A model generated the notes under the pieces. It was given only the letters and a program-made list of their open reading frames with translations. It ran no database searches and was not told the origin of the DNA. Positions 38,401-62,737 of a DNA stretch of 64,000 nt are shown here, piece by piece. Source of the DNA: Rhodoferax ferrireducens (GTDB lineage: Bacteria > Pseudomonadota > Gammaproteobacteria > Burkholderiales > Burkholderiaceae_C). The translations under genes and the position numbers were made by a program. Position 1 is the stretch's first letter, and the number at the start of each line of letters is the position of its first letter. Location: NCBI GenBank assembly GCA_002083775.1, contig MTEI01000002.1:248001-312000 (forward strand), in the 5' to 3' direction.

Positions 38401-39416
38401 TGCTCAGCGGTACGCCACTGGAGTTTGCCGTGGGACAGTGGGTGATCACACAGGTGCTGCACCAGATTGCCCGGTGGCAAGAGGTTGGCATCCATGGCGT
38501 TTTCAGTGCCAATATCAGTGCCGACCATTTGCTTGAAGATGGCTTTGTTGCGTATTTGCAAGAGGCACTGAAGCAATACCCACAAGTCAACCCGCAGCAT
38601 TTGGAGCTGGAAATTCTGGAGACGGCCGCCATTGGCGACATGATCAGCGCCTCCAAGGTGTTGCAGCAATGCCGTGTTCTGGGCATCCGCTTTGCGCTCG
38701 ATGACTTTGGCACCGGCTACTCGTCGCTGTCATATTTCAGGAGCCTGTCATTTGATGTGATCAAGATTGACCAGAGCTTTGTGCGCGATATGCTGGAAGA
38801 CCCCAATGACCTGGGCATTGTGGACAGCGTGGTGCGATTGGCGCATGCGTTCAATCGTCCGGTGATTGCTGAGGGCGTCGAGACGCTTGAGCATGGCGAT
38901 GTGCTGCTGCAACTGGGTTGCCAATTGGCACAAGGGTATGGCATAGCACGCCCCATGCCGGCGGCCCAGTTTGCAAGCTGGACTCGCCAATGGAACGAGG
39001 CCAAAGTCTGGAAAACGCGCCCGCCAAGAGACACTTCTTTGGTCGACCTGCCACTCCTGACATCCATCCGCAGCCATAAAGTCTGGATGGACGCGCTACT
39101 CGCCCAGCTGGATGCTGGCATGACGGGTGTCCCCATTGCGATGGACAGCACCAAATGCGGCTTCGGTCAGTGGTGTCAGGGCGGTGGCTCGGTGCGTTAT
39201 GGTCACCTGCCTTTGTTTCAAAGTATCGAAGCGTTGCACCAGCAGGTGCATGTGCTGGCTCAAGAGATTCTGGCGCAATCTAATACAACAACCTTGGACG
39301 CCCACTGTGCTCAACGCGTGGGTTTGGATCAAATAAGCCGGCAGCTCAACCTGGCATTTGAGGCGTTGGCGCTGGAGGAGAGCAATTCATCACCGCGAGC
39401 GACAGCAATGGCGTGA
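35424..39416 (+). CDS. GAF/PAS/GGDEF/EAL protein with C-terminal CZB-like domain
   Basis: This 1330-residue multisensor c-di-GMP enzyme contains, in order, a partial PAS-like start, a GAF domain (~95-250), PAS domains near 265-375, 390-505, 515-640 and 645-755, GGDEF (~765-930) with RLGGDEFVMLF (~841) and an upstream RxxD inhibitory site (REND), then EAL (~945-1190) with GAEALIRWQHPE and DDFGTGYSSLSYF. Both catalytic signatures look intact. The last ~110 residues resemble a chemoreceptor zinc-binding (CZB) domain: His in SHKVWMDALL, TKCGFGQWC and paired His in EALHQQVH. No membrane segment, so cytoplasmic. CZB after EAL is unusual. Confidence 0.88.
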   Translation: MPAHIVQQLSLQGLARHIQLQHVHPQDLGRLHELLERPQTDKAQRVVFRTIDAYGTWQWFELQSQVLERHANTDANQRIGVLTDITDRQRQAEYTTLQQKFFEVLAQSPDRPTLITTMLDTVLSLSDLDGGGLYWQRGDGGFDLLASRGLSETFLADSGKIEPGDPRVAVIAAGAMVCSCFEPQDVCTDPGLVHQPAIQAEGITALVILPITVAGRGHACLNLASKHVLRLPPTSIALLQSLAEQFSLAVERLMAREDAQNQRQNLEGFFQALQDFVFVLNPQGDILYVNPVVYTKLGYDEHLLGKSVLTVHPERVHASAWAIVSDMLQGKRESCPLPLLRADGSELMVDTRIVHGSWNGLPALLGVSRDISAQRALEQALEQQHDILRTLMHAQPDLVWLKDPQGRYLACNDRFESFFGHKASDIVGRTDYDFVSKELGDLFRANDLMVINTNAAHTNEETVPFASDGHSELLETIKTPLHDRSGRLIGVLGIGRDITARVKAEEERRASLERFQKLAAHVPGAIYQYCQRADGTAYFPFASAGFKAIYGVTPEEVLKDDTILRDIVHPDDVPRVLQSIAQSAAQLTPWVEEYRVCLPGGKLQWVHGHASPVRQSDGSTLWHGYIYNSSAERKAREQLRMGASVFANSYEGIMIADADNVIVDVNPAFSRITGYEPEDVLGKTPRIWSSGRQGPDFYTQMWRMLAEHDQWSGELWNRRKSGEVFAEILSITAVRDEAGKLLHYLAVFIDITPMKTHETELAHIANYDVLTGVPNRRLLTDRLKVALASARRDRSTLALCMLDLDGFKDINDRLGHARGDLLLIEISRRLQGVLRENDTLARLGGDEFVMLFSDMHQQEESHRILSRVLQAIAQPVQLGDTEALISASIGVTLYPLDDADADTLLRHADQAMYAAKQAGKNRYHLFDSEQDRLIKDHKERLERLTQALAHGELVLYYQPKVNLASGEVMGAEALIRWQHPEHGLQSPAEFLPLLSGTPLEFAVGQWVITQVLHQIARWQEVGIHGVFSANISADHLLEDGFVAYLQEALKQYPQVNPQHLELEILETAAIGDMISASKVLQQCRVLGIRFALDDFGTGYSSLSYFRSLSFDVIKIDQSFVRDMLEDPNDLGIVDSVVRLAHAFNRPVIAEGVETLEHGDVLLQLGCQLAQGYGIARPMPAAQFASWTRQWNEAKVWKTRPPRDTSLVDLPLLTSIRSHKVWMDALLAQLDAGMTGVPIAMDSTKCGFGQWCQGGGSVRYGHLPLFQSIEALHQQVHVLAQEILAQSNTTTLDAHCAQRVGLDQISRQLNLAFEALALEESNSSPRATAMA

Positions 39417-39664
39417 CGTGAAAAAGATCAGCCAATCTGGGTGTACTTGCGTGAGGCTATGCAGGTGGCAGCGGTGGTCATAATCCATGGCCATGGCAAG
39501 CACCAAAAAATCCACATTGCCGCGTCATTCAGGAAGCCTTAGGCTGGACCAACAGCCCCCGGATTCGCAGGCTGCGCTGAGCATGGAAACCGTCGCTGTT
39601 CTGGACTTTGAATCGACCGGCCGGTCGGCATGTGATGGCGACAGAGCCACTGAGATCGCCGTTG
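39417..39664. other. Gap before recC containing a gene fragment
   Basis: This stretch has no intact gene except the start of a DnaQ-like exonuclease fragment (39487-39693). No repeat A, B or C is seen. No clear promoter for the rec operon could be picked out. Confidence 0.5.
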
Positions 39665-39693
39665 ATGAAGCATCCAGGTCAACCGGCCGCTGA
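39487..39693 (+). pseudogene. Truncated DnaQ-like 3'-5' exonuclease fragment
   Basis: The open frame is 68 codons. From about residue 33 it reads METVAVLDFESTGRSACDGD and then RATEIAV, which is the N-terminal exonuclease motif I (D-x-E) plus the following strand of DEDDh exonucleases such as DNA polymerase III epsilon. Similarity then stops at DEASRSTGR and a stop codon, and the remaining exonuclease motifs II and III are absent. The end overlaps the proposed recC start. It is most simply a remnant left by a deletion or rearrangement upstream of recC. A functional short peptide is unlikely. Confidence 0.5.
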
Positions 39694-42600
39694 CCCCAAC
39701 CCGCCACGCGGCTTCATGGTGTTGCACGGCAACCGGCTGGAAGATCTGCGCGACCTGTTGGTGAATTACGTGGCGGCGCACCCGCTCAACCCCCTGGAGG
39801 CTGAGGTCATCCTGCTGCAAAGCAACGGCATGAAACACTGGCTGGAGCTGGCGCTGGCTGACGACAGCGCCTTGGGCATCTGCGCCGCCACCCGCATGGA
39901 GCTGCCCAGCGGCTACCTGTGGCAGATGTACCGCGCGGTGTTGGGGCCCGATGCGGTGCCCGAACACATGCCGTTTGACAAGGCCGCGTTGTTGTGGCGG
40001 CTGGTGCGCCTGCTGCCGGAATTGTGTGCGGCCAACCCGGTGTACGCGCCGCTGCAGCGTTACCTGTCGGGTGACAACCCGGCGCGCAAGCTATACCAAT
40101 TGGCCGAGCAGCTGGCTGACGTGCTGGACGGCTACCAGAGCTACCGCGCCGACTGGCTGGCCGATTGGGCACAGGGGCTGGGCCAGTTGTGCGGGCCGCT
40201 CGGGGCGCCACAGGCACTGCCGCCCGAGCATGCCTGGCAGGCGCAACTTTGGCGCGATATACGTGCCGATGTGGGGCCCGAGCTGGCAGAGGCGTCGCGC
40301 GCCAGTGTGCATGAGCGGTTTTTGGTGGCATTGGCGCAGTGGGTAAGCTCTAAAAAAAATAGCGGTCAGCGCCCGACTGGCTTGCCGCACCGATTGATGG
40401 TGTTTGGTATCTCGTCGCTGCCGATGCAGGTGGTGCAGGCGCTGGCAGCGCTGGGTCAGGTGTGCCAGGTGATGCTGCTGGTGCAAAACCCGTGTCAGTA
40501 CTTCTGGGGCGATATTGTCGAAGGCCACGCCGCGCTGCGTGCGCAGGTGCGGCGCAGGCAGCAGGGCAAGCCTGGGGCTGGATCAGCGATCAGTCTGGCA
40601 CCTGCCGCCACCGCCCAGCCGCTCTTGGCCTCCTGGGGCAAACAGGGGCGGGATTATTTGCACCTGCTCGACGGGTTTGATGCGCCCGAGCGCTACCACG
40701 CGCACTGGAGCCGCGTTGACGTGTTTGTGGACCCGGCCCCGGATGAAGCCACGGCCACGCAACTGGCGCAACTGCAGTCAGCCATCTTCAATCTGACGCC
40801 GCCGCCGGAGCTGCCGCAAGATCAGCCCGACGATGGGTCGCTAATCTTCGTTACTGCCCACAGCGCCCAGCGGGAGCTGGAAGCGCTGCACGACCGCCTG
40901 CTGACCTGGCTGGAGGCTGACGCCGCCCTGCAGCCGCGTGAGGTGATGGTGATGGTGCCCGACATGGAAGCCTTTGCGCCGCACATCCACGCCGTGTTTG
41001 GCCGCTTCACACCCGGGCAGCCGCGCCACATTCCGTATTCAGTGGCCGACACCACGCCGCGCCAGAGCCCGCTGGTGCAGGCGCTGGAACAACTGCTGAA
41101 CCTGCCCAATTCGCGCCTGTCGCTGGCCGACTGGTTGAGCCTGTTTGAAGTGGCGGCGGTGCGTGAGCGCTTCAAGCTTGATGTTGCCGCCGTGCGCCAA
41201 ATCCAAGACTGGTTGGCTGCCGCCGGGGTGCGCTGGGGGCTGGATGCCACGCATCGGCTGGCCTGGGGCTTGCCTGCTGGTGCGCAAGGTTTGGAACAAA
41301 ACACCTGGGCCTTTGGCCTGCGTCGGCTGCTGCTGGGGTATGCGCTGGGAAACAGTTCCGCAACACCAGACAGCGCCATCTGGTGCGACATCCTGGGTCA
41401 GCCCGCGCTGAGTGGTCTGGATGCGCCATTGGTCGCTGGCCTACTGGGTTGGGTTGAAGCCATCGAGCAAACCTTGCCTGCGCTGCAGCGTGAACAGTCG
41501 CCCAGCGAGTGGGGCGATACCTTGCAAACCCTGGTCGAGCGTTTTTTTTCCCCGGCAGACGATGCCGATGAGCGCGCCATCGAGCGCTTGTTAGCCCCGT
41601 TGGACGTGTGGCTTCAGGCCTGCGCAGACGCTGCACTGGACACCCCGCTACCGCTAGAAGTGGTGCGCGAGCACTGGCTGGCCAACATCGCCGAGGCGGG
41701 TTTGCAGCAGCGCTTTTTTGGTGGCGGTGTGCAGTTTGGTACGCTGATGCCGATGCGCTCGATCCCGTTCAAGGTGATTGGCCTGTTGGGCATGAACGAC
41801 GGTGCCTACCCACGGGTGCAGGCCGCGCTCGACTTTGATCTGATGGCCAGCAGCTGGCGCGCCGGTGACCGTTCCCGCCGCGAGGACGACCGCTACCTGT
41901 TTCTGGAGGCGCTGCTGTCGGCCCGGCAAACCCTCTACATCAGCTGGCAAGGCCACAGCGCGGCAGACAACAGCGTTCGCCCGCCGTCGGTGCTGGTGGC
42001 GCAGCTGCTGGATGTGGTCAACGCCTGCTGGTCGCCAGAGCGTCAAGCGCAGCCGCAGCCACTGCAGCCGTTCTCGGAAGCCTACTTTGAGGCCGACTCA
42101 CCCTACCAGACCTTTGACGCCGATTGGGAACAAATTCGGCCTCTAGCCCTTATGAATAATGGGCAAGTAGCTATGGAAAGCGTACTGATTCAGGCAAGGG
42201 GCGCAGATGCCCGTGCGTCAGAAGTCGCCGTGCGACCACCCACCCTGACGCTGGCCGACCTGCAGCGCCTGCTGCGCCAGCCGGTGGATGTGTTTTTCCG
42301 CAACCGGCTGCAGGTGGAATTTGACAGCCTGGAAGAGCTGGAGCAAGAAGACGAACCCTTTGCCCTGAACCCCTTGCAGCAGCACCAAGCCGGTGCCGCG
42401 CTGCTGCAGGCGCAAGGGGATGCGGCGGCACTGCGCAGCCTGCACTTGGCGGGCACCCTGCCGCTGGCCGGTTTTGGCACCCGCCTGGCTGATGAATTGA
42501 TGGCCAAGGCGCAGACTGTGCTGCAGTCACGCGCCGCCTGGTTGCAGCGTTACCCGGTGGCGCTGGCTGCACTGCCGGTTGAACTGGTGCTGCCGCAGGT

Positions 42601-43264
42601 CCAGGAAGACCCGTCGGCTCTCTTGGCAAAAATTAATGGCGGTCATTGCGGGCCTGACCCGCAATCCATGCGTTTGACTTGCCAATTGACCGACACGCTC
42701 AGCGGCGTTTGGTCGCAAGACGCCAACGACCCCCACGCGCCTTGCCTGCAACTGGCCGAGCGTACCGGCGCGGTGTTGCAGGGCAAAAACGCGGCGGTGG
42801 CCGCGCGCCTGCATGTGCTGGCAGGTCTGTGGGTGCGGCACTTGGCGGCCTGCGCCAGCGGCCTGACCATGACCAGCGTGCAACTCGGAGTGGATGGCCA
42901 GGTGGTGCTTCCGCCCATGAGCGCCGCTGCCGCAATGGCGGCGCTGGGTCAATTGGCCCAGGCTCATACACAAGCTTGGGCGCAGCCGCTGCCCGTAGCC
43001 TGCAAAACCGCTTGGGCCTGGCTTTTGGCCGAGCGGCAAAACCAGGCGCTGGTCGCTGCTGGCAAGCCCGCCAAAGACCCGGTTGAGGTTGCTCGCGAAG
43101 CCTTTGAAGGCGGTCAGTGGGGCGGAGAGCTAGCCGAGTCAGCCTATTTGCAGCGTGCGTTTGCCAGCTATGACGATCTGGCCACAGACCTGCCGCATTG
43201 GGCGCAGCTGCTGTATGGCGGCTTGCTGGCTAACATCTCCCAGGCGACCACAAGTGAATCATGA
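39665..43264 (+). CDS. recC: Exodeoxyribonuclease V gamma subunit RecC
   Basis: This ~1199-residue subunit of RecBCD splits DNA and recognises Chi; its helicase-like folds lack ATPase motifs. Family features are MVLHGNRLEDLRDLLVNYV, LLQSNGMKHWLELALAD, the helicase-like TRMELPSGYLWQMYR and the mid-region MPMRSIPFKVIGLLGMNDGA. An ATG at 39665 is preferred; TTG 39608 or ATG 39635 would extend into the exonuclease fragment, and ATG 39716 is also possible. Two repeats lie in frame: A at 42131 (residues ~823-839) and B at 42642 (~993-1002). A TA-like pair, then recB and recD, follow. Confidence 0.88.
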   Translation: MKHPGQPAADPNPPRGFMVLHGNRLEDLRDLLVNYVAAHPLNPLEAEVILLQSNGMKHWLELALADDSALGICAATRMELPSGYLWQMYRAVLGPDAVPEHMPFDKAALLWRLVRLLPELCAANPVYAPLQRYLSGDNPARKLYQLAEQLADVLDGYQSYRADWLADWAQGLGQLCGPLGAPQALPPEHAWQAQLWRDIRADVGPELAEASRASVHERFLVALAQWVSSKKNSGQRPTGLPHRLMVFGISSLPMQVVQALAALGQVCQVMLLVQNPCQYFWGDIVEGHAALRAQVRRRQQGKPGAGSAISLAPAATAQPLLASWGKQGRDYLHLLDGFDAPERYHAHWSRVDVFVDPAPDEATATQLAQLQSAIFNLTPPPELPQDQPDDGSLIFVTAHSAQRELEALHDRLLTWLEADAALQPREVMVMVPDMEAFAPHIHAVFGRFTPGQPRHIPYSVADTTPRQSPLVQALEQLLNLPNSRLSLADWLSLFEVAAVRERFKLDVAAVRQIQDWLAAAGVRWGLDATHRLAWGLPAGAQGLEQNTWAFGLRRLLLGYALGNSSATPDSAIWCDILGQPALSGLDAPLVAGLLGWVEAIEQTLPALQREQSPSEWGDTLQTLVERFFSPADDADERAIERLLAPLDVWLQACADAALDTPLPLEVVREHWLANIAEAGLQQRFFGGGVQFGTLMPMRSIPFKVIGLLGMNDGAYPRVQAALDFDLMASSWRAGDRSRREDDRYLFLEALLSARQTLYISWQGHSAADNSVRPPSVLVAQLLDVVNACWSPERQAQPQPLQPFSEAYFEADSPYQTFDADWEQIRPLALMNNGQVAMESVLIQARGADARASEVAVRPPTLTLADLQRLLRQPVDVFFRNRLQVEFDSLEELEQEDEPFALNPLQQHQAGAALLQAQGDAAALRSLHLAGTLPLAGFGTRLADELMAKAQTVLQSRAAWLQRYPVALAALPVELVLPQVQEDPSALLAKINGGHCGPDPQSMRLTCQLTDTLSGVWSQDANDPHAPCLQLAERTGAVLQGKNAAVAARLHVLAGLWVRHLAACASGLTMTSVQLGVDGQVVLPPMSAAAAMAALGQLAQAHTQAWAQPLPVACKTAWAWLLAERQNQALVAAGKPAKDPVEVAREAFEGGQWGGELAESAYLQRAFASYDDLATDLPHWAQLLYGGLLANISQATTSES
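42131..42180 (+). repeat. Repeat A within recC
   Basis: AAATTCGGCCTCTAGCCCTT, then GAATAATGGGCAAGTAGCTA, nearly identical to intergenic copies. It is translated as IRPLALMNNGQVAMES with no stop codon. Confidence 0.85.
42642..42670 (+). repeat. Repeat B (short form) within recC
   Basis: GTCATTGCGGGCCTGACCCG followed by CAATCCATG, preceded by AAAATTAATGGCG typical of repeat A edges. Translated HCGPDPQSM, identical to the peptide encoded by the copy in recB. Confidence 0.88.
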
Positions 43265-43355: not shown

Positions 43356-43769
43356 ATGCCCAAAGCAAAAATTGGATTTGAGGTGGATGCTGATGATCTG
43401 GCCCACGCCAAGGCCTATGTGGCCAGGCATGGCGGCTCGCTCAACAAACTGGTTTCGGCGTTGTTCGCTTCGCTCGGACAGCAAGAGCAGCGCGCCGCGC
43501 CTGCCATGGACCCGGCCACACGTGTCTTGCTGGAGGTGAGCGCTGCCAAGATCTCCATCATGGAAGCGGCACAACAGCTGGGCTTGCCAGACGCGGGATA
43601 TGTGCTGCAACGCTTGGCGCAAGCAGGTTTGCCGCTGCCCCGGCTATCGCCATCGGACGCCAACCGCCAGCTGGAACTAGCCCAGCAGGCGCTGGACGCT
43701 TGCCTGCTTGAGCCCGCGCCCCCGGTCAAGAAGCGCGGACGATCAGCCGGAGGGGTGATCCCGGCATGA
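43356..43769 (+). CDS. Antitoxin-like protein (ribbon-helix-helix / UPF0175-like)
   Basis: This 137-residue protein has an N-terminal segment that reads like a ribbon-helix-helix DNA-binding domain (KIGFEVDADDLAHAKAYVAR, then GGSLNKLVSALFASLG). A second helical segment at about residues 55-100 (LLEVSAAKISIMEAAQQLGL) resembles UPF0175-type antitoxins. The tail is basic (VKKRGRS). It overlaps the next gene by 4 bases (ATGA), as expected of an antitoxin preceding its toxin. It sits 91 bases after recC. Assignment is by pattern and context, not by any search. Confidence 0.6.
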   Translation: MPKAKIGFEVDADDLAHAKAYVARHGGSLNKLVSALFASLGQQEQRAAPAMDPATRVLLEVSAAKISIMEAAQQLGLPDAGYVLQRLAQAGLPLPRLSPSDANRQLELAQQALDACLLEPAPPVKKRGRSAGGVIPA

Positions 43770-44305
43770 CCCGAATCCTGATTGCCGATGCTGGCCCGCT
43801 GTTTTCGCTGGCTGCAGGCAATTTGCTTGGATTGCTGACCCATTTTCGCTTGGGGCTAACCGATGTCGTCCGGGAAGAATCCGTTGACCGCGGGTTGTTG
43901 CCCGACGCTTCTGTGGAGGCACAAAGGCTGCTGGCCTTTTATAACGCCCATGCAGCGCACATTGAAACGTTTGCCACGCAGGTGGGCATCACCGTGCGCG
44001 CCAAACGGCTGGCCGATCCGCTCTACCAGATGCCGCGCCATGTGGGTGAGTTGTCGATTCAGAGCCTGCTGATTGACCTGCAGTTGCAGGGCTCAAGCGA
44101 GCCACCGGTGGTGGTGTTTGAAGACGCTTGGTTCATGCGCAACGCCAGTGCACTCGCCAAGCCTTGTGTGCTGTTGAGCACGCAAGCCCTGCTGAACTAT
44201 GCCGAGTCCAAGGGCTGGATCGCATCGGCCGAGTTGGCCCGGCAAGCCATTGCGCAAGCCCGTCCGCTGGCTTACCCAGCCAGCATCACTATCGTGCCGG
44301 CATGA
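43766..44305 (+). CDS. PIN-like toxin candidate
   Basis: This 179-residue protein opens with ILIADAGPLFSLAAGNLLGL, the first acidic position and hydrophobic strand of PIN-fold nucleases, and has further acidic candidates in TDVVREESVDR, GELSIQ and VVVFEDAWFM. These fit a VapC-like metal-dependent ribonuclease, although spacing is loose and the protein is larger than most VapC (130-150 residues). Both ends are coupled: the start overlaps the antitoxin gene by 4 bases and the end overlaps recB by 4 bases. An alternative is a DUF3368-type PIN relative. Function is inferred. Confidence 0.6.
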   Translation: MTRILIADAGPLFSLAAGNLLGLLTHFRLGLTDVVREESVDRGLLPDASVEAQRLLAFYNAHAAHIETFATQVGITVRAKRLADPLYQMPRHVGELSIQSLLIDLQLQGSSEPPVVVFEDAWFMRNASALAKPCVLLSTQALLNYAESKGWIASAELARQAIAQARPLAYPASITIVPA

Positions 44306-47300
44306 CGGGCACCCAGCGCACGCTCAACCCGTTGACGCTCCCTTTGAGCGGCCTGCAACTCATCGAGGCCTCGGCTGGCACTGGCAAAACCTGGACGCTG
44401 GCGGCGCTGTATGTGCGGCTGGTGCTGGGTCACACACCGGGCTCAAGCAGCCTGGGCGTTGGCCTGGTTCCGCCACAGATTCTGGTGATGACCTTCACCG
44501 AAGCCGCCACCGCCGAGCTGCGTGAACGCATCCGCGAGCGCCTGGCGCTGTCAGCCCGGTTCTTTCAGACCGGCGACGCGCCCAAGGTGGATGATTTTTT
44601 GCGTGAACTGCGTGGCAGCATCGCGCCCGCGCACTGGCCACTGTGCGCCCAGCGGCTCGATTTGGCGGCGCAGTGGATGGACGACGCAGCCATCTTCACC
44701 ATCCACGGCTGGAGCAGCCGCATGCTCAAAACGCATGCCTTTGACAGCGCCAGCCTGTTCACCCAGAACCGCGTCGAAGACGGCGAGCGCCTGCAACTCA
44801 TTGCCACGCAAGACTATTGGCGGCACTGGTTTTACGGCTTGGAGACGAGCGCCCTGGCGGCCCTGAAGTCGGTGGGTGACACGCCGCAGGCGCTGCTCGA
44901 CAAGCTCAAAACCCTTTGGCGCGAGTCCGAACGTGCCCCACAAGAAGAGTTTGAGGCGCCCGTGCCACCCGATGTGTTGCTGGCGCGCTGGGTCGTGTGG
45001 CAGCAACAGCGGGAGGTGCTGGAAGCGCCAGCCCGGCAGGCCTGGGCAGCAGATGTGGTGCAAGCCATTCAGGATGTGGCGGCTACCAAAACCCTCAAAA
45101 ACTACCGCCCCCACTGGCTCGGCGGCTGGCTGGCCCAGATGGCCGACTGGCGCGACGGCGGCGAGATCGACCCGGTCACACTGGCCCGTTTCACCACCCC
45201 CACGCTGGTTGCCAAGGGGTGGGCCGCAGCGCAAAACTGGCCGGTGTTTGCGCAGTTGCAGGCGCTGTCGGACCACCTGGCCGCCGAGCCCGACGTGGTC
45301 ACCGGGCTGCTGGCCCATGCTGCACAAGAGGTGCACCGTGCCTACCAGCGCGCCAAGGCGCAGGCCGCGCAGTTTGACTTTTCAGACCTGCTGCAAAACC
45401 TGTACCACGCGCTGCAGGCGCCAAACGGGCGGCTGGCAGCAGCCATTCGCGCCCAGTACCCGGTGGCGCTGGTCGACGAGTTTCAGGACACCGATCCATG
45501 GCAGTTTGGCAGCTTGAGCAAAATTTATAGCTGCTCGCTCAATGTGGATAAGGGCTGTAGCCTGTTTTCAATGGATCGTCATTGCGGGCCAGACCCGCAA
45601 TCCATGGCTTCAGTCGAATGGATGCCGGATCAAGCCCGGCATGACACCAAGAGATCGGGCTCTTCGACAACGCTGGGTGATACCCGGGCTGATGTGCTTG
45701 CCGTGCCAGGCGCCGACGGCGGCCTGATCATGATTGGCGACCCCAAGCAGGCCATCTACAGCTTTCGCGGTGCCGATCTGGCCACCTACTTGCGCGCCCG
45801 TGAGCAGGCGCAGGGCATCTACAACCTGCCGGGCAATTACCGCTCCACACCGGGCGTGGTGGCGGCGGTGAACCAGGTGTTTGGCAGCGCCAGCCAGCCG
45901 TTTGGCAGCGTGCCGTTTGTGCCGGTGGTCGCTTGCAATCCGTCGGTGGTGCCGCTGCAAGTCGCCAGGCAGCCACAGAAAGCGATGACGGTCTGGCATT
46001 TGCCATTTGCCAAAACCCCGACCAAAGACGAGGTGTTGAGCCAGATGGCTGCCGTATTCGCCAGCCAGATGGTGGCGCTGTTACAAAGTGGCGCGGCGCA
46101 AAGTGGCGACATGGCGGTGCTGGTGCGCAACTGGACTGAAGCGGCGGCCATCCGCACGGCCTTGTCGCAGCGCGGCGTGCGCAGCGTGTATTTGTCGGAG
46201 CGCAACAGCGTCTATGACAGCCAACAGGCAAAAGACCTGTGGCGCATTCTGCGTGCGGTGGCCAGCCCGGGCTCAAACCGGCTGGTGCGCGCTGCGCTGG
46301 CCACGCCGAGCTGGAGTCTGGCCTGGGGCGAGCTCGATGCCCTGTTTGCTGACGAAGCCGCCTGGGACACGCTGGTCGAGCAGTTCTTGCAGTGGCAGCG
46401 CATCTGGCGCGCGCAGGGCTTTTTGCCGATGCTGTATCGCCTGTTGCACGACCAGGGCCTGCCCAAGCGTCTGCTGCAAAACCCGACGCTCGGCGAACGG
46501 GCGTTGACCAACCTGCTGCACCTGGGCGAATTGCTGCAAGCCATCAGCCTGCAGGTGCAAGGCGAGGGCGCGTTGATCCGGTATCTGGAAGAGCAGTTGC
46601 GCCGCCCACAAGCCAGCGGCGAGGCTGCGCAACTGCGGCTGGAAAGTGATGCCAATCTGGTGCAGGTGGTCACGCTGCACAAATCCAAGGGGCTGGAGTA
46701 CCCGCTGGTGTTTTTGCCGTTTGTCTCGCTGTACCGCGCCGAGGACAAGGACAGTGGCCGCCCGGATGTCGAGCGCCTGAGCGAAGACATCCGCCTGCTG
46801 TATGTGGCGCTGACCCGCGCCAAACAGGCGCTGTGGCTGGGTGTGGCGCAGGTCAAGGGCGATGTGGACGGCAAAACGCCGCAGGTCAAAAGTGCCTTGT
46901 CAGCCTTGCTGAACCGCAGCGCGCCGGATGATCTGTGGGACAAACTGCAGGCTTGGGCCGGGGATGACATTGCGGTTTTGACCGCGCCTGAGCCGGATGA
47001 GGTCATCTACCAGCCGGTGGCCGAGGTCAAAACGTTCAGGCCCGCCCGCGTACCGCAACGCCTGATCCGCAGCCGCTGGTGGAGCGCCAGCTTCAGCGCC
47101 CTGACGCGTGACTTGCCGCACGGCCCAGCGGCATCCGGCGCATCACCGACGCAAAGCGAGCGCGACGAGCAACTGCAGGACGCGCAACTCGACAGCCAAG
47201 CTGAAGAGTCTGGCTTTGGTTTGGCTGTCATCCCGGACGCGATCCGGGATCCAGTTTTGACGCCAGCCCCCGATCTGCTGACCGTAGCCCCCCTCTACAA

Positions 47301-48069
47301 CGACTTCCCCGCGGGCAGCCGATACGGCACGCTGTTGCACGACCTGCTGGAATGGCAGGCCACCCACGGCTGGCCCGCTGCAATCGACCCAGAAGCAGCT
47401 GACCCCCGCCACGCGCACGCCGTGCTGGCTACGCAGTGGCAAACCCTGCTGGCGCGGCAAAGCCAGCGGCACAATTTGAGCGTCGAGCACCGCGCCTTGC
47501 TGCCGGGCTGGGTGCGCCAAGTTATCACGTCAAATATGCCTATAGCCCTTATGGAAAAAGGGCAGACAGCTATTAATTTAGGGAATATCAACGCGCCCAA
47601 CCTATGGCCTGAGATGGGTTTCAGCCTGCCGGTGCACTGCCTGGGCAGCCAGCCGCTGGACGCGCTGATCACCCGCCACATTTGGCCCACCCAGCCGCGC
47701 CCGCCGCTGCAGCGCCGCCAGCTGGAAGGCATGTTGACCGGTTTCATGGACCTGGTGCTGCTGCATGAGGGGCGTTATTTCGTGCTGGACTACAAATCCA
47801 ACCGCCTGCCTGGCTACCTGCCCGCCCAGTTGCAGCAGGCGATGCTCGGCCACCGCTATGACGTGCAGGCGGCGCTGTACCTGCTGGCGCTGCACCGACT
47901 GCTGAAAAGCCGCTTGCCAGCTTACGACCCGCAAGTCCATCTGGGCGGCGCGTTGTACCTGTTTTTGCGTGGCATTGACCAGCCCGGCTGCGGTTTGCTG
48001 CACCTGCGGCTGCCGCTCGAATTGGTGCTGGCGCTGGACGCCGCCTTGGGTTCGGAGGGGTTGCCATGA
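44302..48069 (+). CDS. recB: Exodeoxyribonuclease V beta subunit RecB
   Basis: This 1255-residue UvrD-type 3'-5' helicase and nuclease has Walker A EASAGTGKTWTLAALY (~residue 20), TFTEAATAELRERI, motif II VDEFQDTDP (~390-399), motif III IGDPKQAIYSFRGAD (~475-490), HKSKGLEYPLVF and LLYVALTRAK, and the C-terminal nuclease with GFMDLVLL and VLDYKSNRL. The start follows the toxin gene by ATGA overlap; recD overlaps the end likewise. Three repeat blocks lie in frame: 45520-45645 (A+B+B) between motifs II and III, 47227-47252 (B) and 47530-47583 (A). Whether these inserts affect activity is unknown. Confidence 0.93.
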   Translation: MTGTQRTLNPLTLPLSGLQLIEASAGTGKTWTLAALYVRLVLGHTPGSSSLGVGLVPPQILVMTFTEAATAELRERIRERLALSARFFQTGDAPKVDDFLRELRGSIAPAHWPLCAQRLDLAAQWMDDAAIFTIHGWSSRMLKTHAFDSASLFTQNRVEDGERLQLIATQDYWRHWFYGLETSALAALKSVGDTPQALLDKLKTLWRESERAPQEEFEAPVPPDVLLARWVVWQQQREVLEAPARQAWAADVVQAIQDVAATKTLKNYRPHWLGGWLAQMADWRDGGEIDPVTLARFTTPTLVAKGWAAAQNWPVFAQLQALSDHLAAEPDVVTGLLAHAAQEVHRAYQRAKAQAAQFDFSDLLQNLYHALQAPNGRLAAAIRAQYPVALVDEFQDTDPWQFGSLSKIYSCSLNVDKGCSLFSMDRHCGPDPQSMASVEWMPDQARHDTKRSGSSTTLGDTRADVLAVPGADGGLIMIGDPKQAIYSFRGADLATYLRAREQAQGIYNLPGNYRSTPGVVAAVNQVFGSASQPFGSVPFVPVVACNPSVVPLQVARQPQKAMTVWHLPFAKTPTKDEVLSQMAAVFASQMVALLQSGAAQSGDMAVLVRNWTEAAAIRTALSQRGVRSVYLSERNSVYDSQQAKDLWRILRAVASPGSNRLVRAALATPSWSLAWGELDALFADEAAWDTLVEQFLQWQRIWRAQGFLPMLYRLLHDQGLPKRLLQNPTLGERALTNLLHLGELLQAISLQVQGEGALIRYLEEQLRRPQASGEAAQLRLESDANLVQVVTLHKSKGLEYPLVFLPFVSLYRAEDKDSGRPDVERLSEDIRLLYVALTRAKQALWLGVAQVKGDVDGKTPQVKSALSALLNRSAPDDLWDKLQAWAGDDIAVLTAPEPDEVIYQPVAEVKTFRPARVPQRLIRSRWWSASFSALTRDLPHGPAASGASPTQSERDEQLQDAQLDSQAEESGFGLAVIPDAIRDPVLTPAPDLLTVAPLYNDFPAGSRYGTLLHDLLEWQATHGWPAAIDPEAADPRHAHAVLATQWQTLLARQSQRHNLSVEHRALLPGWVRQVITSNMPIALMEKGQTAINLGNINAPNLWPEMGFSLPVHCLGSQPLDALITRHIWPTQPRPPLQRRQLEGMLTGFMDLVLLHEGRYFVLDYKSNRLPGYLPAQLQQAMLGHRYDVQAALYLLALHRLLKSRLPAYDPQVHLGGALYLFLRGIDQPGCGLLHLRLPLELVLALDAALGSEGLP
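45520..45645 (+). repeat. Composite A+B+B insert within recB
   Basis: Repeat A is at 45520-45569 (TTTATAGCTGCTCGC, then GATAAGGGCTGTAGCC), a short repeat B at 45578-45606 (CATTGCGGGCCAGACCCGCA) and a second B unit at 45619-45645 (GATGCCGG/CCGGCATGAC). It adds about 42 codons in frame. The TAG normally present in the A core in this frame (CTGCTAGCC) is changed to TCG here, so translation continues. Confidence 0.87.
47227..47252. repeat. Repeat B within recB
   Basis: GTCATCCCGGACGCGATCCG plus GGATCC, an inverted repeat ATCCCGGA/TCCGGGAT variant as in 11539-11592. Translated VIPDAIRDP, in the linker before the nuclease domain. Confidence 0.8.
47530..47583 (+). repeat. Repeat A within recB
   Basis: TGCCTATAGCCCTTATGGAA, then AAAGGGCAGACAGCTATTAA. 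Translated MPIALMEKGQTAINLG, in the same frame as the recC copy (PLALMNNGQVAME). Confidence 0.85.
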
Positions 48070-49988
48070 GCGCCGCTGTTTGGCTGGAGGCTGCCAAGAC
48101 TTTGCCTTTGAGTGCGCTGGACTTGGCGTTTGCGCAATACCTGCAGCAAGCCCAGCCCAGTGACAACGCGCACCATGCTTGGCTGGCGGCGCTGGTCAGC
48201 CACCAGTTTGGTCGCGGCCACGCCTGCCTGGATCTGGATGTGCTGCGCCACAGCGGCGTACTGGCGCTGGGTTGGGAGGCTCGTCTGCAAGACGCGTTGC
48301 CCCACGATCTGATTCAGGCCGCTGACAGCTTGCCTTGGACCCAAGGCCACGCCAGCCCGCTGGTGCTGGACGACCAGCGACTCTACCTGCGGCGCAACTG
48401 GCAGGCCGAGCAGAGCATCCGCGCATCGATCCTGGCGCGGCTGGCCCAGCCGTGTGCGGTACCTGACGGCCTGGCCAGGGCGCTGGACAGCTTGTTTGCG
48501 CCAGCGCCCTGGCCCGGCGCTGAACCGTCTGGCATGGCGGCCAGTCCTGCACCCGAACCACCCTACATGCAGATACCTGCTGTGACAGCGGTGGCCCCCG
48601 ACTGGCAAACAGTGGCCTGCGCCATCGCCGCCCGGGGTCGTTTTACCCTGATCACCGGCGGCCCGGGCACTGGCAAAACCACCACCGTGGTGCGTCTGCT
48701 GGCTTTATTGCAGTCGCAAGCCACGCGACCGCTGCGCATCGCGCTGGCCGCACCCACCGGCAAGGCGGCGGCGCGCCTGGGTGAGTCGATTGCCCAGGCG
48801 GTCAAAAAGCTGCCAGCCAGCATGCAGGCGCATATTCCGACCCAGGCGCAAACCCTGCACAAGCTGCTGCAGGTGCGCGCAGCCGTGCAAGCCATACCCG
48901 CGCCCGAACTGGCGCTGGACGCGGTGGTGGTGGACGAAGCCTCGATGATTGACCTGGAACTGATGGCCCGCCTGATGCAGGCAGTGCCACTCTCGGCCAG
49001 TCTGATCCTGCTGGGCGACAAGGACCAGCTCTCCTCGGTGGAAGCGGGCGCCGTCATGGGGCAACTCTGCCAAGGTGCGCAAGCGGGTGGCTACAGCCCG
49101 GCCACCGCGCAGTGGGTTCAACAGACCACCGCTCAGGATGTCAGCGCCTGGTGTGGCACGGGCTCAGCCCTGGCCCAGCAAACGGTGATGCTGCGCCACA
49201 GCCACCGCTTTGCAGCCAATAGCCTCATTGGCCAGTGGGCCAGCGCGGTGAATGCCGGGGACAAACAGACGGTGACAGCGTTGTGGGAAAGCACGCCGCC
49301 CTGGTGCGCTGATCAGCTCCCCAGCGTGACACGGCTGCAGCCTGGCCCAGGCAGCCATGCAGACCTGGCAGCGCTGGTGCGCGCAGGTTGGCAGCCCACC
49401 CTGGCCAGCCTGCAAACCCTACAAACTGAGGCGGCAACCTGCAGTGATGCGCAGGCGCTGGCGCTGCTGCAAACCCTGAGCCGGTTTCAAACCCTGTGCG
49501 CGCTGCGCGAAGGCCCGTGGGGCGTGCTGGCGCTCAACCGCCACATCGCCCGGGCTTTGGGTTTTCCGCTGGATGGCTGGTACGCGGGTCGGCCGGTGAT
49601 GGTGACGCGCAACGACTACAACCTGGGGTTGATGAACGGTGACATCGGCCTGTGCCTGCCCACTGCGCGCGGGCTGCGCGTGGCGTTTGCCACACCCGGC
49701 CAGGACAATGGTCTGGGCCTGCGCTGGGTGCTGCCGAGCCGCCTGGATGCGGTGGAAACGGTGTTTGCCATGACGGTGCACAAATCCCAGGGTTCTGAAT
49801 TCGACTGGGTGGCGCTGGTGCTGCCAGACCGGGTTGCGCCAGTCTTGACCCGCGAGCTGCTCTACACCGGCATCACCCGCGCCAAACAGCGCTTAAGCTT
49901 GGTGGTGCCACAAGCGGGCGTGCTGCGCCAGGCGGTGGCGACCCGCATTTTGCGCAGCGGCGGTTTAACCATGGAGCATTTGCCATGA
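48066..49988 (+). CDS. recD: Exodeoxyribonuclease V alpha subunit RecD
   Basis: This 640-residue superfamily 1B 5'-3' helicase subunit has Walker A LITGGPGTGKTTTVVRLL (~residue 200), APTGKAAARLGESI, Walker B VVVDEASMIDLELMA, LLGDKDQLSSVEAGAV and the C-terminal motif TVHKSQGSEFDWVALVLP and LYTGITRAKQ. It is complete. The start overlaps the recB stop and the end overlaps the DUF3616 start, both by 4 bases, so all are likely translated from one message. Confidence 0.95.
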   Translation: MSAAVWLEAAKTLPLSALDLAFAQYLQQAQPSDNAHHAWLAALVSHQFGRGHACLDLDVLRHSGVLALGWEARLQDALPHDLIQAADSLPWTQGHASPLVLDDQRLYLRRNWQAEQSIRASILARLAQPCAVPDGLARALDSLFAPAPWPGAEPSGMAASPAPEPPYMQIPAVTAVAPDWQTVACAIAARGRFTLITGGPGTGKTTTVVRLLALLQSQATRPLRIALAAPTGKAAARLGESIAQAVKKLPASMQAHIPTQAQTLHKLLQVRAAVQAIPAPELALDAVVVDEASMIDLELMARLMQAVPLSASLILLGDKDQLSSVEAGAVMGQLCQGAQAGGYSPATAQWVQQTTAQDVSAWCGTGSALAQQTVMLRHSHRFAANSLIGQWASAVNAGDKQTVTALWESTPPWCADQLPSVTRLQPGPGSHADLAALVRAGWQPTLASLQTLQTEAATCSDAQALALLQTLSRFQTLCALREGPWGVLALNRHIARALGFPLDGWYAGRPVMVTRNDYNLGLMNGDIGLCLPTARGLRVAFATPGQDNGLGLRWVLPSRLDAVETVFAMTVHKSQGSEFDWVALVLPDRVAPVLTRELLYTGITRAKQRLSLVVPQAGVLRQAVATRILRSGGLTMEHLP

Positions 49989-53998: not shown

Positions 53999-56859
53999 GC
54001 AATAAGCCTCATAGCAGCAGATTCAAAATCATCAATCGGCATGGGTTTGCCGAACAGGTAGCCTTGCAGCATATCGCAATGGTGCAAGTCGCTCAGGAAG
54101 TAGCGTTGGGCTTCGGTCTCCACGCCTTCAGCCACAACCTTGATCTTGAGGCTGTGCGCCAGGCCAATGGTGGCGGCGCAAATGGCAGCCGCCTGGTCGC
54201 TGGTCTGCATGTCACGCACAAACCCCTGGTCAATCTTGAGCTGATCCAGTGGCAGCCGACTCAAATAGGCCAACGACGAGTAGCCGGTGCCAAAGTCATC
54301 CAGCGAAAAGCCCACCCCCAGGGTTTTGAGCGATTTCATCTTGACGATGACATCGTTGATGTTGTCCACCAGCAAGCTCTCAGTCAACTCCAGCTTGAGC
54401 CGGTTGGGGTCGGCACCGGTGCGCAGCAGGGTGGTCAGCACCTCGTCGACAAAATGCGTCTGGTGAAACTGCTTGGCGCTGACATTCACCGCCAGGGTCA
54501 GGTGCGCCAACTCGGGGTCGCGGTGCCAGGTGGCCAATTGTTGACAGGCCGTGTCCAGCACAAAGGCCCCCAGCGGCAGGATCAGTCCGCTTTGTTCCGC
54601 CAGGTCGATGAATTCGAGGGGTGACACCAGGCCGCGCTGCGGGTGCATCCAGCGCACCAGGGCTTCGGCACCCACCGGCAGACCCCGCGCATCCACTTGC
54701 AACTGGTAGTACACCACCAACTGCCCTTGCTCAATGGCCAGGCGAAGCGCCACTTCCATGGCGGCCTTGGCCTCCACGGCGGCCTGCACCTGCGGGTCAA
54801 AAAACCGCAACGCATTGCGGCCACCGGCCTTGGCCTCGTACATGGACAAATCCGCGCGCTTGAGCAGCTCGTCAATGCTCTCACCCAAGCCACAAAACAT
54901 GGCCACACCAATGCTGGCGGTGGAGTGGAAGCGCACGCCCGAGAATTCAAGGTCGTGATCCAGCGTTGCCAGAACCTTTTGGCCAATGGTGTCAGCCTGT
55001 TGGGCGGCATCGCTGGCGTTGTCACCAAGGCTTTCCAGCATGATCACGAATTCATCACCCCCCAGACGTGCCACGGTGTCGTTGCTGCGGACCGTGGCAC
55101 TCAGGCGTTTGGCCACCTGGCGCAGCAGGTCATCACCCACGTGGTGGCCCAGGGTGTCGTTGACGCTTTTGAAGTTGTCCAGATCAATGAACAGCAAGGC
55201 GCTGCATTGGTTGGTGCGTGAGCTGACCATCATGGCCAGCTCCAGCCGGTCCATGAGCAGACGGCGGTTGGGCAGGTCGGTCAGCGGGTCATAAAAAGCC
55301 AGGCTACGGATCTGGTTCTCGGCAGCCTTGCGTTCGCTGATGTCGCTGAAGGCCGACACATAGTTGGTAATGACCCCCGCCTCATCCTTGACCGCGGTGA
55401 CCGTGAGCCACTCCGGGAAAATACCGCCATCTTTGTGCCGGTTCCAGATTTCGCCGGCCCACATGCCGGTTTGGGCAATGCTCTCAAACATGGTCTGGTA
55501 GAAAGCCTTGTCATGCCGCCCGGAGCTCAACAGGTTGGGGTTGCGCCCCAGAACCTCGTCGGGGCGGTAACCGGTGATGTCGGTGAACGCCTTGTTTACC
55601 CGCAAAATCACGTTTTTGGCGTCAGTGATGGCCATGCCCATTTGGACATTGAAGGCTGTGGAGGCGATGCGCAGCTCGGACTCGACGCGTTTTTGGTGGC
55701 TGATGTCGCGCAAGATGGCCAAGGTGTGCCAGGTTTGACCGAGTTGGATGGATGACAGCGACATGCTGACCGGAAACTCCGAGCCGTTCTGGCGCCGCGC
55801 CATCGCATCCATGTGTCGGCCAGGTAGGGCATTGGCTTGTGGGGCCTGCGAATGGACTGGCCCAATGTCAGCGTTGTCTCGCAGGTAGGCGGGCATCAGC
55901 GTCTGGTAAATGGCTTGCCCCAGCAACGCTTGTTGTGAATACCCGGACAAGCGCTCCGCCGCCGGGTTGCAATAGACCAGCTTGTCGTCGGGTCCGATGA
56001 TCAGCACCGCTTCATCGGCTGCGGTGCTGATCAGCCGGAACTTTTCCTCGCTTTCGGCAAGCGCATCAGCGCGCAGTTGCAACTCATGGGTGCGCTGTTG
56101 CACCAGATCTGCCAGTTGGTCTTGCTGGCGCTGCAGTTTGAGGTTGGCCAGCTGGAGCTGTCCGATCATCCGTTGCACATAACGGGTCACAGGTCGAAAA
56201 ATCAGCGCCGCCTCCAGCCCCAGCAACAGCAGAGTCAGCAGCCAGAACAGGGTCTCCAGGCGCTGCAGTTGGGAGACCCGCGTTTCACCCTCCTGTTGGT
56301 GCAGCAAAACCATGTTGTCCAGCGCTTGCAGCAAGGGGCCCGTTGCCGTCTGGGTCACAAAGGCGAGGTCAGGGTCGTCTGGCTGCGCGGGCGATGTGGC
56401 TCGCTGCAGCAGGCGCTGCACCGCGCTGATGTAGGCTTTAACCTGCAGGTCCAGCGCCTGAGGGCCGTCAAAATAAAGCGCACGCGCAGCTGGTGACAAA
56501 CGGCCCGGCAAGCCCATCGTTTCATCACCCTGAACGAGTCCGCTGTGTGAACGCGCCATCAACGCAATGGCTTCTTCCAGGTTGGCGCGAATGGCAGGCA
56601 GTTGCGCGGCCGGGGCCGTGCGCAACAGGTTGGAGAACAGCGCTGTGCGCTGGCTGAGCATGCGCTGGCGACCACTCACATTCACAATTGCTGCGGTGCT
56701 GGTTTGCTCCGAAATGACCCATTTCAGGCTGAGCCAGGCGGCGCTTGCCAAGCTGGCGACCAGCAACAAAGCGACCGCGTAGCGCCGGGTGAGCGATCGC
56801 GCGATGGCTGTGTCGCTTTCAGGCTGGGAACCTTTCTTATCGGTTTCTGGTAGTTCCAT
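53995..56859 (-). CDS. Membrane GGDEF/EAL protein with PilJ-like sensor
   Basis: This 954-residue protein has membrane segments near residues 27-47 and 215-235 enclosing a PilJ-type sensor (VSGRQRMLSQRTALFSNLL), then two PAS domains (~280-400 and 400-530), GGDEF (~535-695) with VARLGGDEFVIML (~596) and an RSND inhibitory site, and EAL (~705-950) with GAEALVRWMHPQ and DDFGTGYSSLAYLSRL. Both enzymatic signatures look intact, so it may make or break c-di-GMP. It overlaps the WS/DGAT-like gene by 4 bases, so the two are probably expressed together. Confidence 0.9.
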   Translation of the reverse strand: MELPETDKKGSQPESDTAIARSLTRRYAVALLLVASLASAAWLSLKWVISEQTSTAAIVNVSGRQRMLSQRTALFSNLLRTAPAAQLPAIRANLEEAIALMARSHSGLVQGDETMGLPGRLSPAARALYFDGPQALDLQVKAYISAVQRLLQRATSPAQPDDPDLAFVTQTATGPLLQALDNMVLLHQQEGETRVSQLQRLETLFWLLTLLLLGLEAALIFRPVTRYVQRMIGQLQLANLKLQRQQDQLADLVQQRTHELQLRADALAESEEKFRLISTAADEAVLIIGPDDKLVYCNPAAERLSGYSQQALLGQAIYQTLMPAYLRDNADIGPVHSQAPQANALPGRHMDAMARRQNGSEFPVSMSLSSIQLGQTWHTLAILRDISHQKRVESELRIASTAFNVQMGMAITDAKNVILRVNKAFTDITGYRPDEVLGRNPNLLSSGRHDKAFYQTMFESIAQTGMWAGEIWNRHKDGGIFPEWLTVTAVKDEAGVITNYVSAFSDISERKAAENQIRSLAFYDPLTDLPNRRLLMDRLELAMMVSSRTNQCSALLFIDLDNFKSVNDTLGHHVGDDLLRQVAKRLSATVRSNDTVARLGGDEFVIMLESLGDNASDAAQQADTIGQKVLATLDHDLEFSGVRFHSTASIGVAMFCGLGESIDELLKRADLSMYEAKAGGRNALRFFDPQVQAAVEAKAAMEVALRLAIEQGQLVVYYQLQVDARGLPVGAEALVRWMHPQRGLVSPLEFIDLAEQSGLILPLGAFVLDTACQQLATWHRDPELAHLTLAVNVSAKQFHQTHFVDEVLTTLLRTGADPNRLKLELTESLLVDNINDVIVKMKSLKTLGVGFSLDDFGTGYSSLAYLSRLPLDQLKIDQGFVRDMQTSDQAAAICAATIGLAHSLKIKVVAEGVETEAQRYFLSDLHHCDMLQGYLFGKPMPIDDFESAAMRLIA

Positions 56860-62416: not shown

Positions 62417-62479
62417 GGCTATTGGCTATTGGCTATTGGCTATTGGCTATTGGCTATTGGCTATTGGCTATTGGCTACT
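62417..62479 (+). repeat. Heptamer tandem repeat GGCTATT x 8 plus one degenerate
   Basis: Eight exact 7-base units run from 62417 to 62472, followed by GGCTACT at 62473-62479. A uniform array of this kind is a likely site of slipped-strand length variation. Confidence 0.95.
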
Positions 62480-62516
62480 GGTTTCTGCATTCACTGTCAC
62501 CGATATCGCCAGGCGG

Positions 62517-62639
62517 GGTGATCGGGGTATGTGACCGGGCTTTGGGGTGGAAGGCGCGCGCCTACAGTCGGTAGCGACCTGAGGCCTACATTTCGCGCGT
62601 GATTTCACCCCAAAACCGCATGCACATGCCCCGGTCGCC
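62517..62639 (+). repeat. Repeat C copy 3, ~123-bp imperfect palindrome
   Basis: It runs from GGGTGATCGGGG to CCCCGGTCGCC with CGCGCG blocks in each arm, in the same orientation as 506-627. It lies in the cysN-cysD gap, beside the heptamer array. Confidence 0.75.
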
Positions 62640-62737
62640 GCGCCGGGTTTGACGCGATATCGCGAGCCTGTCAGGGGCTCAACTTTTCTTTGGCAGTTTG
62701 TCATTTCAAGAATCCAGATGTCCCGTGGCCATGGCAA

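Follow-up and report, generated by a model that had tools for sequence, protein, structure and literature searches.

The window, that is, the whole stretch of 64,000 nucleotides that was analysed, codes for the three subunits of exodeoxyribonuclease V on the same strand, in the order recC, recB and recD, and all three products score above their NCBIfam equivalog cut-offs. The gamma subunit gene recC occupies positions 39608..43264 (+ strand; its real start may lie later). It is followed by recB (beta subunit; 44302..48069, +), a single open frame coding for 1255 residues, and by recD (alpha subunit; 48066..49988, +), which has no match to the models of either of the two repeat families, A and B, described below. 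Two small overlapping frames of 137 and 179 amino acids lie between recC and recB (43356-44305), the second of them ending on the recB start. Visual inspection suggests a regulator and a PIN-like protein in a toxin-antitoxin-like arrangement; the 179-aa frame has no Pfam match. The closest relative, G005, has its recC and recB matches at a distance of only about 50 bases. Among the 80 named RecB loci kept for comparison, the closest is that of Rhodoferax antarcticus (79% identity), which makes Rhodoferax the probable genus.

RecB is free of stops, exceeds the TIGR00609 cut-off and contains all the helicase and nuclease motif strings that we looked for. Pairwise dN/dS between the window recB and the genes of four relatives is 0.135-0.158, and the relatives give 0.116-0.160 among themselves. 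The window recB is under the same constraint as recB of the relatives, and the description in the initial annotation of a gene that keeps its frame despite an insertion and is otherwise intact holds. The same genome (4.47 Mb) also contains a second recB (G000:C31:38758-42417, 39-45% identity, near a contig end) and a second recC (G000:C24:41735-45004, 42% identity), so that the window recB might be a decaying duplicate while the second RecBCD does the work. The lack of stops, the presence of the motifs and a dN/dS of about 0.14 on pairs that include the window gene make this highly improbable. The repeat A and B models find no match in the 12.8 kb surrounding the second recB.

The unusual feature of RecB is the linker between helicase motifs II and III. 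Motif II (VDEFQDTDP) corresponds to residues 391-399 and the motif III string IGDPKQ begins at residue 478, which leaves a linker of 78 residues (400-477; 45499..45732, +) rather than the approximately 70 estimated earlier. The corresponding linker of E. coli RecB, previously given as 13-17 residues long, comprises 20 residues (392-411) in the alignment with 1w36_B. We obtained the linker length for 75 of the 80 named RecB loci, those with both motifs in one frame; five loci gave no length, and no Xanthomonas is present among the 80. The linker is 20, 22 or 23 residues long in 65 of the 75 and longest, with 57 residues, in R. antarcticus. Compared with the aligned relatives whose linkers (22-30 residues) have no repeat A-like part, the window RecB has gained 48-56 residues, or 144-168 bases, which is more than the approximately 128 inserted bases first proposed. 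The AF2 model of RecB residues 10-720, built from 25 sequences (mean pLDDT 72.6, pTM 0.47), places residues 412-471 (45535..45714, +) between a predicted helix and a predicted strand. These residues have pLDDT below 50, as would be expected anyway for an insert without homologues, and we read them as a predicted disordered region.

The first component of the linker belongs to repeat A, a family of REP-like palindromes 58 bases long with 38% G+C and at least 150 copies in the genome. The linker copy (45519..45569, -) is degenerate. It is nevertheless detected with an E-value of 2.2e-6 by an HMM constructed from 148 genome copies; the two listed copies from recB and recC were excluded from the HMM, and the linker copy was never part of the list. 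This segment folds no better than its shuffled versions (z +0.56). Outside this genome the family is also found: with the genome itself counted, 13 of 60 genomes of the bacterial family, one per genus, contain repeat A at E-values of 1e-6 or better. The repeat A consensus has two stop-free frames, and these are used by 15 of the 21 in-frame copies in the genome. The linker copy is read in another frame, in which the consensus (matched by eye) holds two stops. Both are sense codons in recB, in agreement with the earlier observation that a stop expected in repeat A is replaced here. Among 123 non-genic copies, 11 are open in that frame and 20 have no open frame at all; loss of the stops after insertion is therefore not required. 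One previously described repeat, the betaproteobacterial BRE, was considered as a possible identity of repeat A. BRE occurs in several genera, Rhodoferax and Polaromonas included, and four copies are given for Rhodoferax ferrireducens in Table 2 of the source (PMC3110155, available in part). The sole grounds for setting it aside were length and base composition: full-length Bordetella copies have 75-91 bp and on average 69% G+C, as opposed to 58 bp and 38% G+C for repeat A.

The second component is a pair of repeat B units. Repeat B is a 34-base unit present at least 150 times in the genome, and 40 further places in the genome match the B segment of the linker at E-values of 7e-4 or better. 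Both linker units (unit 1, 45576..45609, +; unit 2, 45614..45647, -) are present in the genome-wide unit list. They are arranged head to head with their tags outside, and the pair folds better than shuffled sequences (z -2.53). The two stems differ, which makes the pair a heterodimer. According to the available part of Di Nocera et al. 2013 (PMC3733652), CGTC-tagged REPs have a terminal CGTC, often TGTC or CCTC, an 8-9 bp stem starting with AT, a 4-5 nt loop and an unpaired tail that is mostly CCA, and they form dimers mainly head to head, that is, with the tags outside. We compared 110 of the at least 150 repeat B units with this description, keeping in mind that our search pattern itself demanded GTC and a stem with AT first. 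The tag is TGTC or CGTC in 101 units (CGTC and TGTC in the recB pair), another base precedes GTC in six, and three do not fit. The AT-first stem pattern fits 107 units, all of which have at least seven of eight pairs (G-T counted). Loops have 5 nt in 87 units, including both in recB, and 6 nt in 20, the latter exceeding the published 4-5 nt; three loops were unmatched. The CCA tail is found in 105 of the 110. As to arrangement, the 107 B elements consist of 66 single units, 37 pairs with the tags outside, two pairs with the tags inside and two triples. In tag, 8 bp AT stem, CCA tail and head-to-head dimers, repeat B agrees with CGTC-tagged REPs as defined in that publication. Among the families covered in the same partially available source, a stem of 8 and a loop of 5 bring it closest to CGTC-2, and heterodimers such as the linker pair are said there to be commonest in CGTC families 2 and 3.

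The two repeats, as initially proposed, thus lie inside the linker and belong to families that recur throughout the genome, with matches better than chance. These matches bear on a simpler account, in which the linker is merely a fast-evolving, expandable segment and the likeness to repeats is secondary. It is true that five named RecBs outside the clade have linkers of 31-43 residues. However, DNA matches to two families of at least 150 members each and the structure of the REP pair leave this account with hardly any likelihood. Some 23 residues following the B pair resemble neither repeat, and several relatives have a variable tail of their own at this place. At gathering scores, Rfam models have no matches within the window. 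The window also contains tandem GGCTATT units (62417-62488, family D4), related GC-rich stretches near both of its ends (93-679 and 62512-62644; 51-104 nt, 71-88%) and an inverted pair of 115 nt that is 80% complementary over a distance of 15 kb (38679-38793 and 54207-54321).

The linker is one of several places with insertions in recB and recC. A further copy of repeat A lies in recB before the nuclease motif (47529..47581, +; SNMPIALMEKGQTAINL) and another in recC (42131..42184, +; IRPLALMNNGQVAM), both common to relatives. For the recC copy, the HMM has matches in ten other genomes (E 1e-11 to 0.02) at positions consistent with the protein alignment. In addition, each gene contains a single CGTC-like REP unit. 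The unit in recB (47221..47255, +; peptide VIPDAIRDP) lies in a region of variable length and is absent from the aligned relatives. Of the 28 other recC rows, some of which come from the same genome, 26 extend over the site of the recC unit (42640..42673, +; INGGHCGPDPQSMR), and all 26 lack it. In total, recB and recC contain six palindromic elements.

The order of events in the linker can be deduced from the alignment of RecB from the window and 24 relatives (25 rows). The DNA HMM detects an A-like linker in seven of the closest relatives, at E-values of 1e-4 or better in three of them (L013, L015 and L020) but only weakly in the other four (L014, L018, L021 and L033; 0.014-0.13), and three more (L012, L016 and L019) have it by protein alignment only. 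The A-like part is missing from L017, from the second RecB type and from most rows of more distant relatives, the linkers of which have 22-30 residues, in line with the earlier expectation that relatives without the repeats would lack the segment. The B pair is present in none of the 24 relatives. Since A is common to the closest relatives and the B pair occurs in none, A came first and the B pair later. The idea of one composite insertion therefore needs correction: the insertion was stepwise, with an older A and a younger B pair.

We then considered how the inserted codons evolve. The 46 A-derived codons compared in five genomes have a dN/dS of 0.80 (bootstrap 0.48-1.34), whereas the 2122 other codons of recB and recC have 0.14 (0.13-0.16), and none of 2000 random block sets reaches the value of A. 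These values come from a counting method and not from a branch model, and the ratio is rough since dS of the A-derived codons (0.35) is lower than that of the rest (0.70). The A-derived codons evolve nearly neutrally. It might be argued that the peptide has been domesticated, the loop having acquired a role in RecBCD such as a contact with a subunit or another protein, because A has been kept at three recB/recC sites in relatives at 65-83% RecB identity. With a dN/dS near 0.8, lengths ranging from 22 to 78 residues among the rows with an A-like linker and predicted disorder, we consider this very unlikely. A function for the inserted peptide is unsupported by any result.

To put the recB and recC elements into a genome-wide context, we used a census of the best 150 copies of each family, so that degenerate copies elsewhere were missed. 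An in-frame copy was required to have at least 20 open codons on either side and positive codon scores. By this measure, 30 of 257 elements (21 of 150 A and 9 of 107 B) lie in frame inside coding frames, with 12 weak candidates excluded. Of these, 26 are outside recB and recC, and 25 of the 26 frames have a Pfam match; by Pfam, the hosts include a CCA-adding enzyme, MiaA, phosphoglucose isomerase, PurL, AMP nucleosidase, Mfd and a long UvrA-like protein. Copies of the families thus occur both between genes and in frame within genes of conserved proteins, as is the case for RPE-type elements. The very long UvrA-like frame (L138; G000:C10:61917-66650) has counterparts of 1957-2220 aa in relatives and seems to be a tandem UvrA fusion; relatives also have a shorter UvrA-like frame besides the long one. 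We also asked whether B prefers to land beside A. Only 4 of the 150 listed A copies are within 50 bases of a listed B, with about 3 expected by a rough estimate for shared intergenic space, and we do not claim such a preference.

The distribution of the in-frame copies is uneven. Although recB and recC account for 0.18% of coding DNA, they hold 4 of the 30 copies (2 A and 2 B), an excess with a binomial p of 3e-7, or 2e-5 given one copy as the reason for looking, both values assuming that 90% of the genome is coding. Plain neutrality does not explain this excess unless both proteins are unusually tolerant. With mfd and uvrA, which also contain CGTC-tagged REPs, 4 of the 9 in-frame B elements are in repair genes, and according to the available part of PMC3733652 the same leaning is seen in other species. 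One might suppose, following the mutator idea of the 2013 paper, that such insertions are favoured because they tune repair and recombination: a cell with weakened RecBCD, UvrA or Mfd would tolerate more repeats or evolve faster. On the other hand, A-derived codons drift almost neutrally and recB is under ordinary purifying selection; 24 of the 30 in-frame elements are in genes other than recB, recC, mfd and uvrA, many of these genes being metabolic; and the genome has a second recB and recC. This explanation therefore appears unlikely. An adaptive reading is unsupported by the rates, and the neutral look of the peptides favours tolerance over adaptation.

Comparison with relatives, which was performed for recB, recC, mfd and uvrA only, revealed that insertion sites may be used more than once. 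Of the seven sites compared (three in recB, two in recC and one each in mfd and uvrA, the last two with seven relatives aligned each), four have received a second, different palindrome. In the recB linker, A was followed by B. At the A site of recC, G023 has a CCCTCTCCC-type palindrome. The mfd site holds three CGTC-tagged REPs in this genome; in G054 and G004 it holds a CCCTCTCCC-type palindrome, which has 26 and 13 matches, respectively, in those genomes, the two strands of one palindrome being counted apart. At the uvrA site there is a CGTC pair here and a GGGGTCAG palindrome in G010, the standing of which as a repeat family is weak, with just a single further strong place in G010. No second family was seen by eye at the remaining sites (recB 47221, recB 47529 and recC 42640). 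Site reuse agrees with the available part of PMC3733652, in which recB of two Xanthomonas species is reported to carry REPs that differ from each other but lie at approximately one site. A stronger reading is that loops of repair proteins (RecB, RecC, UvrA and Mfd) are recurrent landing sites for unrelated palindromes beyond what loop tolerance alone would give, repair genes being preferred targets or survivors and insertion feeding back on repeat spread. We regard this as a tentative and rather doubtful suggestion.

As for mobility, repeat A was perhaps moved by the REP-associated tyrosine transposase (RAYT) of the genus. A RAYT gene (L291:1141-1866, G000:C9), one of three Y1_Tnp matches and the sole one scanned with NF047646, exceeds the NF047646 cut-off and has repeat A at its 3' end. 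A search of 60 genomes, this genome included, gave relatives of this RAYT in 52. Of 30 RAYT loci, 10 have repeat A at the 3' end (E 1e-13 to 0.03), namely the one in this genome and 9 of the 29 others, and the other 20 show none there. It occurs on both sides of RAYT weakly in two of the 30 loci and, by eye, in L375; in this genome it is on the 3' side only. Since the genus loci examined share synteny around RAYT, the A beside RAYT may represent one old inherited event. TIR-like TGTCCCCAATT and AATTGGGGTCAGATTCCAATT were seen by eye near RAYT. The arrangement resembles the RAYT/REP or TIR associations in the available parts of PMC2817692 and PMC3733652 in having a RAYT above the cut-off, a palindrome at its 3' end and a TIR-like GGGGTCAG in several loci. 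A possible difference is that repeat A, as judged by eye, seems to lack a GTAG tag on the 5' side of its stem; its consensus has GTAGCTAT after the stem, so that the motif would be on the other side. For repeat B we found no candidate mobilising enzyme in this genome, in line with PMC3733652, the available part of which gives no known transposase for CGTC-tagged REPs.

Taken together, our data are probably best explained by parasitic palindromes that selection has left in place where loops tolerate them, the linker being a disordered loop without a function of its own in a functional RecB. Under this explanation, a REP-like repeat A would first have landed in recB of an ancestor, where the helix that follows motif II ends. 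With an open frame, a length that kept the frame and a turn tolerant of extra residues, it would have escaped removal by selection, subsequently decaying as DNA and drifting as a peptide. The head-to-head pair of CGTC-tagged REPs would have inserted next to it at a later time, in the lineage leading to this genome. Judging by the constraint on the gene, RecB would still be functional, and the approximately 50 extra residues would form a disordered loop with no role of their own, which may be retained in mature RecB. Insertion itself may be random or nearly so, with harmful insertions lost by selection and survival in surface loops.

The linker offers a layered record of genomic parasites lengthening a protein, with an older, near-neutral palindrome and a younger one adjoining it. 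The census adds numbers to the question, raised in 2013, of why REPs occur in repair genes, and the leaning recurs in a genus that, like Polaromonas, is absent from the main text of PMC3733652. As RecB orthologues with and without the insert are available, the question is testable.

In the available parts of the papers, a literature search on this group and on recB found no description of repeat A or of REPs in Rhodoferax recB; the kind itself is in print. According to the available part of PMC3733652, REPs also lie within recBCD and further repair genes, uvr included, with recB of two Xanthomonas species among them; two families stacked at one recB site are not described in that part. The available part of PMC2755013 deals with CRISPR repeats only. 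Some copies of BRE also lie inside coding sequences, in species that the available part of PMC3110155 does not name, and in this respect BRE resembles the in-frame elements seen here. The parallel drawn initially with the palindromic elements of Rickettsia is borne out. The available part of PMC3733652 equates RPE-6 and RPE-4 with CGTC-1 and CGTC-4 repeats, respectively. Like RPE-4 and RPE-6 as characterized there, the elements described here are palindromes lying in frame inside genes of proteins that are likely functional. They differ in that repeat B fits CGTC-2 best and that the host has a genome of 4.5 Mb and, going by its nearest named relatives, apparently belongs to another class. In-frame REPs in recB are thus of a kind already known, and the new details are their layered insertion, near-neutral drift and the reuse of insertion sites.
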